The translations under genes and the position numbers were made by a program. A stretch of DNA of 64,000 nt from Desulfurella acetivorans A63 (GTDB lineage: Bacteria > Campylobacterota_A > Desulfurellia > Desulfurellales > Desulfurellaceae): contig CP007051.1 in NCBI GenBank assembly GCA_000517565.1, forward strand, positions 1-64,000, read 5' to 3'. Below, piece by piece: positions 29,500 through 61,619 of this stretch (positions within the stretch are counted from its first letter, which is position 1; every line of letters begins with the position of its first letter). The notes under the pieces are model-generated. The model was not told the DNA's origin. It did no database searches and was given only the letters and a program-made list of their open reading frames with translations.

Positions 29500-30724
29500 C
29501 TTAGACGGATTTAGAACATCCATACTTATTGAAGAAAATAGAATTCTAAAAGTCCAAAGCGACATTAAAGTTGATTTGCCGCCTGATACTATCATAATTG
29601 ATGCCAGCGACAAACTTGCAGTTTCTGGTTTTTTTAACGCTCATACACATGCTGCCATGACGCTTTTTAGGGGCTATCAGGACGATCTTAGTTTGCAGGA
29701 TTGGCTTGATAAGATTTTTAAGCTTGAAGCAAAGTATGTTGATAAACACATGGTTTACTGGTGTTCAAAGCTTGCTTGTTTGGAAATGGTATCATGTGGC
29801 ACCACAGGCTTTATGGATATGTATTTTTTTGAAGATGAAGTGGCACAAAGCGCTTTAGATATAGGCTTAAGAGTTGTTATTGGCGAAGGTTTGCTGTCAT
29901 TTGAAACACCATTTTGCGCAAGTTTCAAAGAAGGCTTAAAAAAGACACTTCAGTTAAAAGAAAAATATAAAAATAACCCAAAAGTGAAAGTTTCTTTTGC
30001 GCCTCATTCCCTATATACTTTAGAAAAAAACGATCTGGAGGAGTTAGCGAGCACGATCGACTCTAATGATTATATTCAAATACACCTATCAGAAAATATG
30101 AATGAAGTAAACACAATTTTATCAAAATACGGCCAAAATGGTGCTTTTGTTTTAGATGAGATTGGGCTTTTGAATAAAAATACTTACCTGGCTCATTGCA
30201 CGCATCTAACAGAAGCCGAAATAGATTTAATAAGCAAAAAAAATGCACATGTTATACACAATCCTCAAAGTAACCTAAAACTATCAAGTGGTATAGCAAA
30301 TATTTGCAAGATGATACAAAAAGGTGTGTCTGTTTTGCTTGGCACAGATGGGTGTGCAAGTAACAACAATCTGGATATATTGGAAGAGTTAAGGACCGCT
30401 GCTTTGCTTCAAAAACTATTTAATCCTTCTTACATGAATGCAAAGCTCGCAGTCAGAATTGCCCAAGATTTTGGCGGTTTTTTTGATGTAGGGCTTAGTG
30501 AAGGCAAGCTTGCCGATGTGGTTTTGTTTGATTTAAATGCAATTGAAGCACTACCTATGTATAATCCAGCTTCTTATCTGTCATACGCTGCAAACTCAAA
30601 AAGTGTTGACACAGTTATAATTGATGGGAAAATAATTTACAAAAATAAAGAATTTACAAATGTAGATGTTGAAGAAGTCAAATTTAATGTAGCTCAAATT
30701 GCAAAAAAGATTGGAAGCCTGTGA
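29474..30724 (+). CDS. Amidohydrolase, MtaD-type nucleoside deaminase
   Basis: Metal-dependent hydrolase close to 5-methylthioadenosine/S-adenosylhomocysteine deaminase. It shows HxH in FFNAHTHAAMTLFRG, a metal His in VKVSFAPHSLYT, HLSE, AHCTHLT and the metal Asp in LGTDGCASNNNLD. Overlaps the phosphorylase gene by 26 bases. Together they could convert methylthioadenosine or adenosine to the inosine form and then release hypoxanthine. Aminofutalosine deaminase of menaquinone synthesis belongs to the same group and is an alternative. Confidence 0.88.
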   Translation: MILIKNALNLDGFRTSILIEENRILKVQSDIKVDLPPDTIIIDASDKLAVSGFFNAHTHAAMTLFRGYQDDLSLQDWLDKIFKLEAKYVDKHMVYWCSKLACLEMVSCGTTGFMDMYFFEDEVAQSALDIGLRVVIGEGLLSFETPFCASFKEGLKKTLQLKEKYKNNPKVKVSFAPHSLYTLEKNDLEELASTIDSNDYIQIHLSENMNEVNTILSKYGQNGAFVLDEIGLLNKNTYLAHCTHLTEAEIDLISKKNAHVIHNPQSNLKLSSGIANICKMIQKGVSVLLGTDGCASNNNLDILEELRTAALLQKLFNPSYMNAKLAVRIAQDFGGFFDVGLSEGKLADVVLFDLNAIEALPMYNPASYLSYAANSKSVDTVIIDGKIIYKNKEFTNVDVEEVKFNVAQIAKKIGSL

Positions 30725-32035: not shown

Positions 32036-32102
32036 GCAGGTTAGCGTATTTTTGTCTTTTATATATTAGGTATAAATAGTCTGGCTATTTCCTCTTGTCA
32101 TT
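32036..32102 (+). pseudogene. Degenerate copy of the O-antigen ligase 3' end
   Basis: 67 bases that match 36052-36116 with about five substitutions and a two-base gap; the matching bases there encode AQVSIFLSFMLGINSLVIS near the C-terminus of the ligase. The gap breaks the frame. The match runs straight into a repeat unit at both places, so the remnant and the intact gene share the same junction with the repeat. Confidence 0.7.
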
Positions 32103-32282
32103 CTAAAGCACACGAAAGTGTGCGAAGAATCCCACAAGTAGATCCTTCGTTTCACTCTGAATGACTGACTTCACATGCGTTCAGGATGACACCCCTCTTG
32201 TCATTCTGAAGCTTCAGCGAAGAATCTCCCAACTGCATAAACCCTACCCGTCATTTTGTGGGTACCGCGACGAAGAATCTCC
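32097..32282 (+). repeat. Modular palindromic repeat, cluster A
   Basis: One full unit 32097-32165 (left arm with mini-hairpin GCACACGAAAGTGTGC, right arm GATCCTTCG to TGAATGAC). An extra right-arm copy follows at 32166-32190, then two left-arm-only pieces at 32200-32230 and 32250-32282. Units follow the plan GTCATTCTGAG-variable-CGAAGAATC-spacer-GATCCTTCG-variable-CTCAGGATGAC. Confidence 0.85.
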
Positions 32283-34880: not shown

Positions 34881-36142
34881 TGAATATTGATACTAAAAAA
34901 CTGTCTTTTCAGTTGCTTTATATTAGCAGTTTAATGTTTGCTGTTTTTGTTGCTACATCTATTGCTGCGGATAGTTTGGCTATTAGTATTGGTCTAATCG
35001 GTTTAATAATGTTAATTTTAACCAAACAGTTTAGATTTGAAAGAAATGATTTACCTCCTGCTTTATTTTCTATTACTTATTTTTGGTCAAGTGTTTTTTC
35101 TATAAATCCAATACATAGCCTTTCTAGCTTTCACTATATATGGCATTTTGCTCCATACTGGATTGTTTCGCGAATAAAAAACAATTATAAAACCATTATT
35201 AATGTATTAGCAATATTCATTATTATAAGTTCAATTGGCGTGTATTTTAATGCTTTTTTTTGTATCAAACCTGCAAATATTTTTAGTGTTGCCTGGTCAA
35301 GTTTGCATTTTAGCCTACCAAACAAAGCATGTGCTCCCGAAGGGTTTAGTGGTTTTCCTTCATATATTGGTGCAATAATGCTTGTTTCTACATTTTTTTT
35401 TGGGGCTCTTGGGTTTTATAATAAGAAAAAGCTTTATTTGTTGGCTTCACTTTGTGCTTTGATTGCTACAATTTTAACTCAGGAACGCCAGGATTGGCTG
35501 GGGCTTTTGGTTGGTATTATAAGTATTGCCTTTTTTGTAAAAAATAGAAAAATTTGGCTGATTTACCTTGCAGGTATCGTTTTGGTTGTTTGTTTGGCAC
35601 AAACGGGTTTTGTGAAAAACAGACTACACTATACACTGCATTTTACAAAAGATCCAGATATTGTAATTCGCTTTGCAATGATTAAAGCATCTTTTGATAT
35701 ATTTAATAAATCAAGTCTGACAAGGAAACTTACTGGTTATGGGCCTAGCTTTGCAAGCAAAATTGTCCACGATGATACAGTTAAAATTTATAAACAATTA
35801 GCCAATAAGTATCATATAAACCCAAACGCTAATATTGCTACAGTAATTGACAATTATTATGTAAATATTTTGATGAGTGCAGGCCTAATAGGGCTTATTT
35901 TAATTTTAAGTGCGTTTTTTATACTTTTAAAAAATAATATAAAAGCCATAAAATACTCTAGTGGCGAGCAAAAAGCCATTTTAATTGGTATGAGTTTGGG
36001 TTTAATAGCATTTTATGTAGCAAGTGGGTTTGATAATCTTTTAGGTAGCGCGCAGGTTAGCATATTTTTGTCGTTTATGTTAGGCATAAATAGCCTGGTT
36101 ATTTCCTCTTGTCATTATGATCGTCATTCTGAGGTCACGTAA
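34880..36142 (+). CDS. O-antigen ligase/polymerase family membrane protein
   Basis: A 420-residue protein with about ten hydrophobic helices and a periplasmic loop before the last ones (WaaL/Wzy plan), including RQDWLGLLVGII and the loop SLTRKLTGYGPSFAS. It is a paralogue of the gene at 36771: both begin with a TSIA...IGLIGL-type stretch and share LP...F-W-S patterning. Its last dozen residues (SSCHYDRHSEVT) are encoded by repeat sequence, so a repeat has replaced the original end. Ligase and polymerase cannot be told apart by eye. Confidence 0.85.
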   Translation: MNIDTKKLSFQLLYISSLMFAVFVATSIAADSLAISIGLIGLIMLILTKQFRFERNDLPPALFSITYFWSSVFSINPIHSLSSFHYIWHFAPYWIVSRIKNNYKTIINVLAIFIIISSIGVYFNAFFCIKPANIFSVAWSSLHFSLPNKACAPEGFSGFPSYIGAIMLVSTFFFGALGFYNKKKLYLLASLCALIATILTQERQDWLGLLVGIISIAFFVKNRKIWLIYLAGIVLVVCLAQTGFVKNRLHYTLHFTKDPDIVIRFAMIKASFDIFNKSSLTRKLTGYGPSFASKIVHDDTVKIYKQLANKYHINPNANIATVIDNYYVNILMSAGLIGLILILSAFFILLKNNIKAIKYSSGEQKAILIGMSLGLIAFYVASGFDNLLGSAQVSIFLSFMLGINSLVISSCHYDRHSEVT

Positions 36143-36380
36143 GTGACCGAAGAATCCCACCCCCTTTATAGCGGTACAAAGTAGATCCTTCGTTTCACTC
36201 AAGATGACACCCCTCTTGTCATTCTGAGCGAAGCGAAGAATCTCACAACTTTAAAGTGGTACAAAGTAGATCCTTCGGGCTTTGAGCCCTCAGGATGACT
36301 AACTTCACATGTGTTCAGGATGACGACAACAAAGCCTTCAGGGACGACACTACCGTCATTCTGAGCGAAGCGAAGAATCC
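36123..36380 (+). repeat. Modular palindromic repeat, cluster B (left of GIY-YIG gene)
   Basis: Full unit 36123-36208 with left mini-hairpin GGTCACGTAAGTGACC. Full unit 36218-36299 with left insert GCGAAGCG, middle mini-hairpin CTTTAAAG and right mini-hairpin GGGCTTTGAGCCC. Then degenerate right-arm copies, and a left arm at 36355-36380. The first unit overlaps the 3' end of the O-antigen ligase gene and supplies its stop codon. Confidence 0.87.
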
Positions 36381-36729: not shown

Positions 36730-36760
36730 GTCATTCTGAAGCGTTAGCGAAGAATCTCAC
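36730..36760 (+). repeat. Palindromic repeat, single left arm (right of GIY-YIG gene)
   Basis: One left arm, GTCATTCTGAAG, insert CGTTAGCG, then AAGAATCTCAC. It is in the same orientation as the left arm at 36355-36380, so the nuclease gene is bracketed by direct copies. Confidence 0.8.
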
Positions 36761-38148: not shown

Positions 38149-38312
38149 GTCATTGTAAGGAGCGAAAGCGTGCGAAGGATCTTATAAGTAGATCCTTCGC
38201 TGACGCTTCAGGATGACGCCTTTTTCGTCATTCTGAAGCCGCGTAAGTGGCCGAAGAATCTCACACTTTAAAGTGGTACAAAGTAGATCCTTCGCTATCG
38301 CTTCAGGATGAC
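38149..38312 (+). repeat. Modular palindromic repeat, cluster C
   Basis: Two full units, 38149-38217 and 38227-38312. The second has left mini-hairpin GCCGCGTAAGTGGC, middle hairpin ACTTTAAAGT and right insert CTATCGCTT. The first is more decayed in its left arm (GTCATTGTAAGG) and has the short middle type. They fill most of the 285-bp gap between two minus-strand genes; I see nothing else in that gap. Confidence 0.87.
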
Positions 38313-39984: not shown

Positions 39985-40254
39985 GTCATTCTAAAGGCCG
40001 CGTAAGTGGCCGAAGAATCTCATAAGTAGATCCTTCGTTTACACTCAGGATGACTGACTTCGTTTACACTCAGGATGACTGACTCTACCGTCATTCTGAG
40101 CGAAGCGAAGAATCTCACAACTTTGCAATGGCACAAAGTGGATCCTTCGTTTACACTCAGGAAGACTAACTTCGTTTACACTCAGGATGACTGACAGGAG
40201 AGAGTCAGGATGGCCCACCCCCCGTCATTCTGAGGGCAACGCCCGAAGAATTCC
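39985..40254 (+). repeat. Modular palindromic repeat, cluster D with right-arm duplications
   Basis: Full unit 39985-40053 (left mini-hairpin GGCCGCGTAAGTGGCC, short middle), then an extra right arm 40054-40078. Full unit from 40090 to about 40166 with a GAAGAC end, then a further right-arm copy to about 40191. A left arm alone sits at 40224-40254 with insert GGGCAACGCCC. The extra right arms share CTTCGTTTACACTCAGGA, as if copied by slippage. Confidence 0.87.
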
Positions 40255-58596: not shown

Positions 58597-59946
58597 TTAG
58601 TTGTTGCTAACAATCAACTCCGAACTTGGTGCCAAATATGTATTGAAAAAATCAATGTCATCTTTGCTTAGCACGCCAGAGTAATATTTTAGCTTAAACA
58701 TATCTGTAATATAGCTGTATTTTGCGTTTAAAAGTTGGTTTTCTACATCGTATAGCTGTTTTTGAGCATTTATCACATCTGCAATAGTTTTTATGCCGGC
58801 TTTTAGGCCCATGTAATTTGCTTTTAGTGCGGTTTGAGCAGCTTTTTTTGCAATTCTTAAACTGTCAATTTTTGATATATCGCTTGATAAATTTAAAAAC
58901 GCTTCTGTAACGCTTGAAGTAATGTTGTTTTGGTAATTTTCTTTGTCCATCTGAGCCTGTTTTACCCTATAGTGGGCTTCGTCAATTCTGGCTATTGAGT
59001 TGCCGCCATTAAAAATTGGCACATTTATTTGTATGCCGATGCTTGCGTATTTTATAGTTTCTGTTTGTATATAGCTATTTGTGTTTGTGTAAGTATAGCT
59101 TGCAATAAGCGCTACGCTTGGCAGCTGATCGCCAATAGCTTTGGTTAAATCTTGCTTATAGTAATTTACATTTTGTTCGTAGTATTTAATTACAGGACTG
59201 TTTTGCTTTGCCAGTTCTATCCAGTCATCTAATTTTGATGGTGTGGGAAATTTAAAACTTATATCATCTTTAAGCGGAGAAATGCTTCTTGGCATAATAC
59301 CGATAATTGCCTTAAATTTTGTAAGGGCGATATCAAGTTTATTTTGAGCCTGAATTAGTTTTGCCGATGTAATATCGTACCTTGATTGCGCATCATCAAC
59401 ATCAACCAGCGTTGCTTCACCTGCTTTGTATAATTTTTGGGCAAGAACCAAATCTTCATGTGCAGCTTTTTTTTCCATTTTTGTAAGATTTATTTGGTCT
59501 AATGCAGAAAGCACATCAAAGTAGCTTTGCGCAACATTATATATAGTTTGCTGGTCGGCATCTTTAAATTGATATTCGCCCATCTTGGCTTTTGTGTTTA
59601 GCTCTTTAAACATAGCAAAGCTTGATAGGTTAAATAAATACTGTTGAGCATTAAGTGAAATAGTGTTTGCCATGTAGTTTGCATAATAATATGGGGCAGT
59701 TCTAAAATCGTACTTGGATCTATTAGCGCTAAGAGAAATTTGTGGCAATAAGTATGATAGGCCTTGCATTTTGTATGTTTGCGAGGCTTTATATTGATAA
59801 GTAGAGGATAAATAGCTTGGATTATAGCCTATTGCTTTATAATAGCTTTGTGTCAAATCAATAGCGTTGGCTTTTGGGCTTAAGCCACAAAATGATGCAG
59901 CCAAAAGACCAATGCCTAACAAATGTGTTTTTTTAATTTTTAGCAC
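58597..59946 (-). CDS. TolC family outer membrane channel
   Basis: Outer-membrane trimeric channel of the type I system. After a signal peptide (KTHLLGIGLLAASFCGLSPKANA) comes the TolC pattern of two repeated helical hairpins: DVLSALDQINLTKMEKKAAHEDLVLAQ split over about 150-180, and KANYMGLKAGIKTIADVINAQ near the end. I start at GTG 59946, which gives a compact signal peptide; a TTG 14 codons upstream (59988) is also possible. First gene of the operon tolC-ABC-hlyD-GT4. Confidence 0.92.
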   Translation of the reverse strand: MLKIKKTHLLGIGLLAASFCGLSPKANAIDLTQSYYKAIGYNPSYLSSTYQYKASQTYKMQGLSYLLPQISLSANRSKYDFRTAPYYYANYMANTISLNAQQYLFNLSSFAMFKELNTKAKMGEYQFKDADQQTIYNVAQSYFDVLSALDQINLTKMEKKAAHEDLVLAQKLYKAGEATLVDVDDAQSRYDITSAKLIQAQNKLDIALTKFKAIIGIMPRSISPLKDDISFKFPTPSKLDDWIELAKQNSPVIKYYEQNVNYYKQDLTKAIGDQLPSVALIASYTYTNTNSYIQTETIKYASIGIQINVPIFNGGNSIARIDEAHYRVKQAQMDKENYQNNITSSVTEAFLNLSSDISKIDSLRIAKKAAQTALKANYMGLKAGIKTIADVINAQKQLYDVENQLLNAKYSYITDMFKLKYYSGVLSKDDIDFFNTYLAPSSELIVSNN

Positions 59947-60104
59947 TTTTAACGCGATACCTCTTTGCTCCAAATAAAATGTCTTCAAAAGCGTGTGAAT
60001 GATACAATAAATAAGTTCTTATGTCAAGGCTTGTTTTAAAAATGTTTCAATATTTTGCTTTTTTGGAGCGTAAAAAGTATTTATAAGGCTATTTTTAACT
60101 GTCT

Positions 60105-60573
60105 GTCATTCTGAGCACACGAAAGTGTGCGAAGAATCCCATAAGTAGATCCTTCACATGCGTTCAGGATGACGCCTTTTTCGTCATTCTGAGGGCAACG
60201 CCCGAAGAATCTCACCCCCTTTTAGGCGGTACAAAGTAGATCCTTCGTTTACACTCAGGATGACACGCCCTTTTGTCATTCTGAGGCCGCGTAAGTGGCC
60301 GAAGAATCTCACCACTTTAAAGTGGTACAAAGTAGATCCTTCGTTTACACTCAGGATGACACACCCTTTTGTCATTCTGAGGAGCGAAAGCGACGAAGAA
60401 TCTCACCACTGTACAATGGCACAAAGTAGATCCTTCGCTAAAGCTCAGGATGACACACCCTTTTGTCATTCTGAGGAGCGAAAGCGACGAAGAATCTCAC
60501 TACTTTGCAATGGTACAAAGTAGATCCTTCGCTGACGCTCAGGATGACTGGCTTCGCTGACGCTCAGGATGAC
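60105..60573 (+). repeat. Modular palindromic repeat, five-unit tandem array E
   Basis: Full units at 60105-60173, 60183-60264, 60275-60360, 60371-60454 and 60465-60548, then an extra right arm 60549-60573. Units are separated by about ten bases, mostly ACACCCTTTT-like. Left inserts differ: GCACACGAAAGTGTGC, GGGCAACGCCC, GGCCGCGTAAGTGGCC and twice GGAGCGAAAGCGA. All run in the same direction. Confidence 0.92.
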
Positions 60574-60783
60574 TGGTTTGGCTTGCAATTTTCGGATGAC
60601 AAGGAGCTCAAAATGACAGTGCACAAGGTTTGAGAGCTTTACTTTTTTCAAATTTAATGGTATAATTCAAAAATCAATAAAAAAAGTTGTTCGTGAGTGT
60701 ATGTCTAGAAAATTAGTTAAATGTCGATGGTTTTTAATATAGTCAATAAGGTCGTTAAAAGGCGAAAAAGCTATTGTTTAAGC

Positions 60784-60938
60784 TCCCGACTTCATCACTT
60801 TTCCACCTAAAACCCACTCTCTAAAGTATTTTAATTTTTTTTAGGCACTACATTTAAGTGTTTTTGAGAGAATGGGATAGATAATTGAGTTGTGGAAGAA
60901 GAAAGAGGAGAAAATGTAGTGGTTTAATGAAGTCGGGA
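60784..60938. repeat. Nested inverted repeat element, 155 bp
   Basis: Perfect 12-base ends TCCCGACTTCAT (60784-60795) and ATGAAGTCGGGA (60927-60938). Inside are two more pairs: CCCACTCTCT against AGAGAATGGG (one mismatch), and CACTACATTT against AAATGTAGTG. No open frame. It could be a small mobile-element relic or a folded RNA; I recognise no named family. Confidence 0.6.
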
Positions 60939-61067: not shown

Positions 61068-61619
61068 ATGAAAAAAAGCGTTATTTCTTTAGCGGCTATT
61101 TGCTGTGCGTCATTTTTGGCTTATGGTTGTTCTACTGCACCTAAAAAACCTCTTGCTGAAAAGCCAGCTCCGCAAAAGCAAGAAGTTCAAAAGCCTGTTA
61201 GCACACCTGCTGTATCTCCAACCACTACACCATCTGTCAGCGAGGAAGAAAGGCTAAAGGAAATCTTCCAACGCATTCATTTTAACTTCGACAAGTATAA
61301 TTTAACTCACATTGACAAATGGGGTATTAATCAGGATGTTCCAAAAGTACTAGATGGTATAGCAGATTATATGGCAAAACATCCAGACATCAAAATTAAG
61401 ATTGAAGGAAACTGCGATGAGCGTGGAACGGAAGCCTACAATCTAGCTTTAGGCCAAAAAAGGGCTGATGCAGCAAAGAACTACCTTGTAATGCATGGTA
61501 TATCACCAGATAGGATTGAAACATTGAGCAATGGTAAACTAAAGCCAGTTGATCCTGCTCATAATGAATATGCCTGGGCAAAAAATAGAAATGATCAGTT
61601 TGTGATTTTAAACAAATAG
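61068..61619 (+). CDS. pal: Peptidoglycan-associated lipoprotein Pal
   Basis: Outer-membrane lipoprotein that grips peptidoglycan. Signal peptide with lipobox AYGC near residue 21, a Pro/Lys-rich linker (about 25-65), and an OmpA-like domain with IHFNFDKYNL, the diaminopimelate-binding stretch EGNCDERGTEAYNLALGQKR and AWAKNRNDQFVI. GGAGGG precedes the ATG. No tol genes adjoin, so it stands alone with its own promoter and terminator. Confidence 0.95.
   Translation: MKKSVISLAAICCASFLAYGCSTAPKKPLAEKPAPQKQEVQKPVSTPAVSPTTTPSVSEEERLKEIFQRIHFNFDKYNLTHIDKWGINQDVPKVLDGIADYMAKHPDIKIKIEGNCDERGTEAYNLALGQKRADAAKNYLVMHGISPDRIETLSNGKLKPVDPAHNEYAWAKNRNDQFVILNK

Follow-up and report, generated by a model that had tools for sequence, protein, structure and literature searches.

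REPs that carry a CGTC tag have been sorted into four families, CGTC-1 to CGTC-4, which include neisserial dRS3 and rickettsial RPE-4 and RPE-6 (Di Nocera et al. 2013, PMC3733652). These families are characterized by an uninterrupted 8-9 bp stem, a 4-5 nt loop of few types and a CCA tail, and they rarely form clusters (PMC3733652). Di Nocera et al. found no dedicated transposase for the CGTC REPs, the enzyme that mobilizes them is not known, and bulged repeats may have been missed by their survey (PMC3733652). The GTAG REPs, which are associated with RAYT/TnpA-REP and include the BIMEs of E. coli and the REPINs of Pseudomonas, are inverted pairs of short hairpins arranged in arrays, and those of the E. 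coli type have a hairpin-bulge-hairpin structure (PMC3733652, PMC6006769). Here, we describe a repeat of the bacterium Desulfurella acetivorans A63 for which the CGTC-tagged REP superfamily is the closest known kind.

The D. acetivorans A63 genome is 1.8 Mb in 2 scaffolds with 32% G+C (PMC5317093), and the genome stretches that we sampled have a G+C content of 0.29-0.34. The sequence analyzed, hereafter the window, covers 64 kb at the start of the two-contig 1.82-Mb genome. Within it, an array at 60105-60573 is composed of five inverted pairs of one repeat, with 78-96 nt from unit start to unit start; the five units span 60105-60548 and are followed by an additional right half that has no foot (Table 1). 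The family is present where the earlier note had placed it, and both arm motifs are far over chance in the window: allowing up to one mismatch, GTCATTCTGAG occurs 24 times compared with 0.43 expected from shuffles, and GATCCTTCG 30 times compared with 2.9. Some details of that description need correction. Two of the inserts quoted for the array, GGTCACGTAAGTGACC and GGGCTTTGAGCCC, correspond to 36123-36156 and 36269-36299, outside the interval 60105-60573. Unit 1 deviates from the proposed consensus unit (GATCCTTCA...GTTCAGGATGAC), and the insert of the left arm in units 4 and 5, GGAGCGAAAGCGAC, needs a GA.GA tandem mismatch to count as self-complementary. Spacers of the repeat are either short (TCATAAGTA) or long with an added hairpin, such as CCACTTTAAAGTGG. 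An 87-aa open reading frame that crosses the array (window 60260-60523) is almost certainly spurious and derived from the repeat.

Table 1. Positions of the repeat halves, related clusters and nearby sites (window positions unless another locus is named)
Feature	Position	Strand	Remarks
Unit 1 left half, T-type REP	60105..60138	+	tip GCACACGAAAGTGTGC
Unit 1 right half, C-type REP	60148..60173	-	tip ACGCATGT
Unit 2 T-half	60183..60211	+	tip GGGCAACGCCC
Unit 2 long spacer (y)	60212..60238	+	partly self-complementary CCCCCTTTTAGGCGG
Unit 2 C-half	60239..60264	-	tip GTGTAAAC
Unit 3 T-half	60275..60308	+	tip GGCCGCGTAAGTGGCC
Unit 3 spacer	60309..60334	+	contains hairpin CCACTTTAAAGTGG
Unit 3 C-half	60335..60360	-	tip GTGTAAAC
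Unit 4 T-half	60371..60402	+	tip GGAGCGAAAGCGAC: second GA.GA step, GAAA loop
Unit 4 C-half	60429..60454	-	tip GCTTTAGC
Unit 5 T-half	60465..60496	+	tip GGAGCGAAAGCGAC
Unit 5 C-half	60523..60548	-	tip GCGTCAGC
Additional tandem C-type half	60549..60573	-	3' foot lost: CGAAGCCA in place of CGAAGGATC
REP cluster, same family	32097..32279		4 halves
REP cluster	36123..36379		5 halves, tips include GGTCACGTAAGTGACC and GGGCTCAAAGCCC
Lone T-half	36730..36756	+	tip AGCGTTAGC
REP cluster	38149..38312		2 dimers
REP cluster	39985..40252		5 halves, including two tandem footless copies
Promoter-like site, TolC/OEP-like gene	59999..60027	-	array upstream of site
Promoter-like site, pal/OmpA-like gene side	60638..60666	+	array upstream of site
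hisIE fusion with in-frame REP dimers	L070 1663-2490		D. acetivorans 1381862-1382689

Read on its own strand, each half-unit is a 25-36 nt hairpin of the form GTC-ATYCT-GA-[tip]-GA-AGRAT-C, and it comes in a T-type (GTC ATTCT GA [tip] GA AGAAT C) and a C-type (GTC ATCCT GA [tip] GA AGGAT C). As in the general definition of a REP, it is an imperfect palindrome of 20-40 nt with an unpaired 5' tag (GTC). A foot of 5 bp (ATTCT/AGAAT or ATCCT/AGGAT) is linked by a tandem GA.GA mismatch to the tip, a small hairpin of 7-18 nt that is found in many types and often closes with a GNA or GNNA loop, the final loop often being 3-4 nt. GA tandems of this kind would form sheared pairs that are stable in both DNA and RNA. 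Among 322 IMG/VR copies, GTC is preceded by T in 275 and by C in 35; in D. acetivorans and the Desulfurella congener G002 together, the preceding base is T in 50, C in 34, A in 26 and G in 4. The tail reads CTC, CTA or CCC, with CCA in 2 of ~320 IMG/VR copies and 3 of the 114 from the two Desulfurella genomes.

Like the CGTC REPs, the Desulfurella repeat has a CGTC/TGTC tag and a stem that opens with complementary AT, forms head-to-head dimers that are often heterodimers, is patchy in its presence, includes in-frame intragenic copies and flanks no transposase gene, the gene context in IMG/VR being partial. It differs in having a 5-bp foot and a conserved GA.GA joint rather than an uninterrupted stem of 8-9 bp, in its tip of variable length, in its tail and in its frequent arrays. 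Because it departs from them in stem continuity, loop length and tail, we did not file it in CGTC-1 to CGTC-4. It shares the arrays of inverted short-hairpin pairs with the GTAG REPs, but the bulge is a fixed tandem GA.GA, the tag is TGTC/CGTC and not GTRG, and there is no flanking RAYT. Rickettsia palindromic elements are alike in their in-frame coding insertion, as seen here in hisIE; whereas those elements reside in proteins, the Desulfurella copies are mostly intergenic. The simplest tips (GCGAAGC, GCGTAGC, GCGCAGC) are exactly GC-GNA-GC, and the first of them is the "extraordinarily stable" DNA mini-hairpin d(GCGAAGC), although that is an oligonucleotide structural motif used in aptamers and not a repeat family.

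The earlier note knew of no description of such a modular pattern. This holds only in part: the sequence family did not turn up in the open-access literature that we searched, but heterodimers, variable loops and structured spacers are features already reported for REPs (PMC3733652). Literature searches with GTCATTCTGAG and partial sequences returned only primers and unrelated DNA, including one 16S rRNA match that was dismissed, and strings from the spurious repeat-derived peptide returned nothing.

The earlier note proposed that the local fold of the inserts is kept while their sequence changes, and such maintenance of fold over sequence is strongly supported in both tip and foot of the half-unit. 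The 51 distinct tips of D. acetivorans contain 117 Watson-Crick pairs compared with 44.8 +/- 4.5 in shuffles, none of 1000 of which reached as high, those of G002 contain 66 compared with 22.9, and the 63 distinct IMG/VR tips contain 135 compared with 84.4, so that in all three sets the inserts are self-complementary far above shuffled sequences, contrary to the outcome by which the earlier note would have been refuted. In the foot, pairs 1 and 2 are near-invariant and the helix is 98% paired by structure counts. The third pair covaries: in D. acetivorans and G002 it is TA in 61 copies, CG in 44, TG in 5, CA in 2 and AG in 2, and in IMG/VR copies found with a pattern permitting all combinations it is T-A or C-G in 107 of 109 (TA 66, CG 41, CA 2, TG 0). 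We also scanned IMG/VR with patterns in which the tested positions were free, and compared the 65 distinct sequences with 5000 shuffles. Watson-Crick pairs were present at foot pair 3 in 56 of the 65 (shuffle 23.1, maximum 36), at foot pair 5 in 55 (29.1, maximum 42), at tip pair 1 in 52 (31.3, maximum 43) and at tip pair 2 in 48 (37.7, maximum 47). These counts are a cleaner test than the alignment of 82 distinct half copies, which was fitted to a covariance model and in which 81.7% of cells are paired compared with 73.9 +/- 0.8 when shuffled, all slid versions are lower, and covariation is 0.221 versus 0.111.

Complementarity of this kind could also be a by-product of template-switch quasipalindrome correction, in which one hairpin arm is copied onto the other without any selection. 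The replacement of tips as whole blocks at matching sites is in keeping with such an origin. So is a G002 copy at site C (L085 ~1229-1310, contig 16), the only case seen, in which the GA.GA joint has become fully Watson-Crick paired (ATTCTGAGCACACGAAAGTGTGCTCAGAAT); this copy hints that one arm does get copied onto the other, though the result is seldom kept. However, this mechanism should erase GA.GA, yet two IMG/VR scans that let the joint vary show it kept in 114 of 120 and 178 of 192 copies, and copying that makes pure palindromes, as the earlier note had suggested, does not account for the persistence of a non-Watson-Crick joint. Furthermore, the loop and the joint each belong to one strand only. 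Short loops have G first and A last in 15 of 26 D. acetivorans tips, 11 of 17 from G002 and 13 of 24 from IMG/VR, and the complementary pattern T..C never occurs among the short loops of these three sets; in simple IMG/VR tips the loop is GNA in nearly all. The G..A loop and the GA.GA joint are thus confined to the GTC strand, a polarity not expected from duplex cruciforms or simple arm copying. Overall, we consider an origin by arm copying without selection unlikely.

The earlier note took the whole unit to be the folded element, as a long cruciform or hairpin formed by its outer arms. The outer arms do pair into a long hairpin in predicted minimum-energy folds, from which the tips of most units project as hairpins of their own. 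For four of the five + strand units folded as RNA, outer arms paired, at most one dinucleotide shuffle reaches as low an energy, and the energy of unit 4 is matched by 4 of 200. Nonetheless, the conserved fold looks like the half-unit, since the third foot pair compensates within halves but is a T.G wobble or A.C mismatch across the two arms of the prevailing heterodimers. On this reading, the mini-hairpins said to sit on the arms are the tips of two head-to-head REP hairpins, and the inserts called x and z are those tips.

Neighboring halves in D. acetivorans are arranged head-to-head in 28 cases, tail-to-tail in 18 (array junctions included) and head-to-tail in 6. Such prevalence of head-to-head dimers would suit a functional whole unit. 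However, most of these dimers are T/C heterodimers, whose arms meet in a wobble or mismatch, and not perfect homodimers: 22 of the 28 in D. acetivorans and 41 of 62 on other contigs, where 62 of 82 pairs of halves at most 80 nt apart are head-to-head. The usual dimer joins a long-tip T-type to a short-tip C-type. Tips that are alike or of equal length were found in none of 36 Desulfurella dimers (random pairing would give 5.2 of equal length, P(0) ~0.002), and a long tip is joined to a short one in 29 of the 36 compared with 17.9 expected, array copies not being independent in either count. Therefore, the inserts never lengthen the long hairpin. Solitary halves also exist, and taken together these observations leave a function of the whole unit very unlikely. 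As with BIMEs and REPINs, two inverted REPs recur as the repeated unit, in the five array units and in a nested unit in hisIE.

A covariance model of the half-unit matched at least 63 copies in D. acetivorans and at least 34 in the congener G002, both lower bounds because scoring was limited to 150 candidates. It matched nothing in G001, a D. amilsii-like genome of the same genus (2.0 Mb, 20 contigs). No copies were detected in 18 further relatives, nor in Hippea. The repeat recurs in unrelated hosts: a deltaproteobacterial MAG (G028) contains 40 exact copies, a Phocaeicola massiliensis plasmid record has a head-to-head T/C dimer, and the same hairpin, GA.GA joint included, is found on more than 120 IMG/VR stretches, although such contigs can include host DNA. 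No match was found in the phages collection. A Thermodesulfovibrionales MAG carries GTCATTCCGAACGAAGTGAGGAATC (L042, 49-73), which has the same hairpin architecture with another compensated foot. Of 24 clusters in D. acetivorans, 22 are between called ORFs, and the other two are a chance weak match at 30422 and the in-frame copy in hisIE. As is general for REPs, the copies are numerous, largely intergenic, and either single or in inverted pairs.

Dimers are present or absent at matching gene positions. The HisI-HisE linker is without insert in G001 (237 aa), has one in-frame dimer in G002 (258 aa), and in D. acetivorans contains the dimer of G002, decayed, with a second dimer nested inside it (275 aa). 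At window sites B and C, D. acetivorans and G002 have REPs at the same position with different tips. A MITE has terminal inverted repeats with a target-site duplication; here the outer arms are inverted repeats, and the non-coding flanks of G001 at window sites A-D are too diverged to read a duplication or an exact empty site, for which the coding site in hisIE served. By GC skew over 20 spaced stretches, replication would start near 1.70 Mb and end near 0.93 Mb. T-type halves of D. acetivorans are on the + strand in 33 cases and on the - strand in 7, with only 4-5 clusters in the second replichore, and the 24 clusters leave a gap from ~0.84 to 1.38 Mb, in which the inferred terminus lies.

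We propose, with a probability of roughly 0.6, that the half-units are REP-type miniature elements that have been amplified as dimers via a single-stranded hairpin of the GTC strand, with their tips exchanged. Two halves, usually one T-type and one C-type, form a head-to-head dimer like those of BIMEs and REPINs, and dimers would multiply in tandem to give arrays such as the one at 60105-60573. The single-stranded GTC-strand hairpin, through which dimers would be mobilized or amplified, may be recognized by a putative nuclease or transposase, and foot, joint and loop would be kept for that recognition. Recombination, gene conversion or template switching may move tips from one copy to another, and tips would vary freely provided they close; part of this exchange could be neutral. 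The mechanism as proposed does not call on the function of neighboring genes. The sequence data do not separate a single-stranded DNA form from an RNA form.

One candidate for the enzyme is the Y1 transposase of D. acetivorans itself, which might mobilize the halves as RAYTs do; RAYTs are known to act on single-stranded REPs (PMC6006769). The sole IS200/RAYT-like gene of this genome encodes a Y1 transposase-like protein of 349 aa (L030 1465-2514, near 1207184), its Y1 domain is identical in G002, and the two repeat-bearing Desulfurella genomes share this gene, whereas the repeat-free one has just a 90-aa remnant and short IS200 genes. However, no repeat copy is found in L030, the 3.3-kb locus of the 349-aa gene, or in L031, the two loci holding the only Y1 genes of D. 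acetivorans and G002, and the inverted repeats around the gene are just AT-rich chance pairs. The protein has NYYHLL against NHYHLL in its Hippea homologues, a replacement of the first HUH histidine by Tyr. In addition, genes related to it occur in Hippea genomes that lack the repeat, the MAG with 40 exact copies shows no PF01797 gene, and the tag of the repeat differs from GTRG. No IS200/RAYT gene was found flanking repeat copies, or close to them in the IMG/VR loci that we searched, where gene context is partial, and our search revealed no enzyme that moves the repeats. Mobilization by the 349-aa protein is therefore highly improbable. More broadly, but only tentatively, the repeat may represent a cross-phylum REP family in which a non-Watson-Crick joint (tandem, presumably sheared GA.GA) serves as the code in place of a GTRG guide, the tip is exchangeable, and head-to-head dimers are copied by an undescribed enzyme other than RAYT.

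The array is located between divergent genes, one TolC/OEP-like (58597-59988, -) and the other pal/OmpA-like (61068-61619, +), the latter having its best protein relatives in Desulfurellales MAGs at 59-63% identity. Because the array is upstream of both genes, outside the promoter-like sites predicted on either side, a terminator role fits poorly and is unlikely at this location; only one terminator-like site was detected at the array, with 0.7 expected. A search of Rfam 15 gave no family above gathering score for the repeat and matched only a tRNA in the window.

More generally, the hairpins could work in transcripts, as terminators, 3'-end stabilizers or RNase sites, with the fold kept for such use. 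GNRA-like loops and tandem GA pairs are stable in RNA too. The predicted RNA folds are well under shuffles, and, by automatic ORF calls, the genes on either side are convergent at 8 of the 24 D. acetivorans clusters and co-directional at most of the rest. Against such use are the position of this array and its single terminator-like site, the patchy occurrence of the repeat inside one genus, the copy that is in frame within hisIE and the same hairpin in unrelated hosts, and we regard an RNA element as improbable.

The comparison separates the constrained parts of a REP hairpin (tag, foot, joint and loop closure) from what is free to change, the length and sequence of the tip. This map helps to spot other families that stem-length filters miss, and the GA.GA joint makes the present family easy to spot in unrelated bacteria. 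Congeneric genomes with the repeat (D. acetivorans-like) and without it (D. amilsii-like) make the question of the enzyme that copies CGTC-type REPs testable.

Repeats of other kinds are found nearby. Beside the REP array, at window 60784-60938, is an element of 155 bp bounded by perfect terminal inverted repeats of 12 bp (TCCCGACTTCAT/ATGAAGTCGGGA); pieces of it have matches in G002, at several places and at contig ends, and it looks like a separate MITE. The D. amilsii-like genome has another small repeat, GGGGACAGGCTACTTT (L114 5091, 8230; L253 1253, 1438, 3110), which also flanks the 90-aa Y1 transposase remnant and occupies two intergenic sites that carry REPs in D. acetivorans. Its sequence fits the GGGGWSAS TIR motif (PMC3733652).
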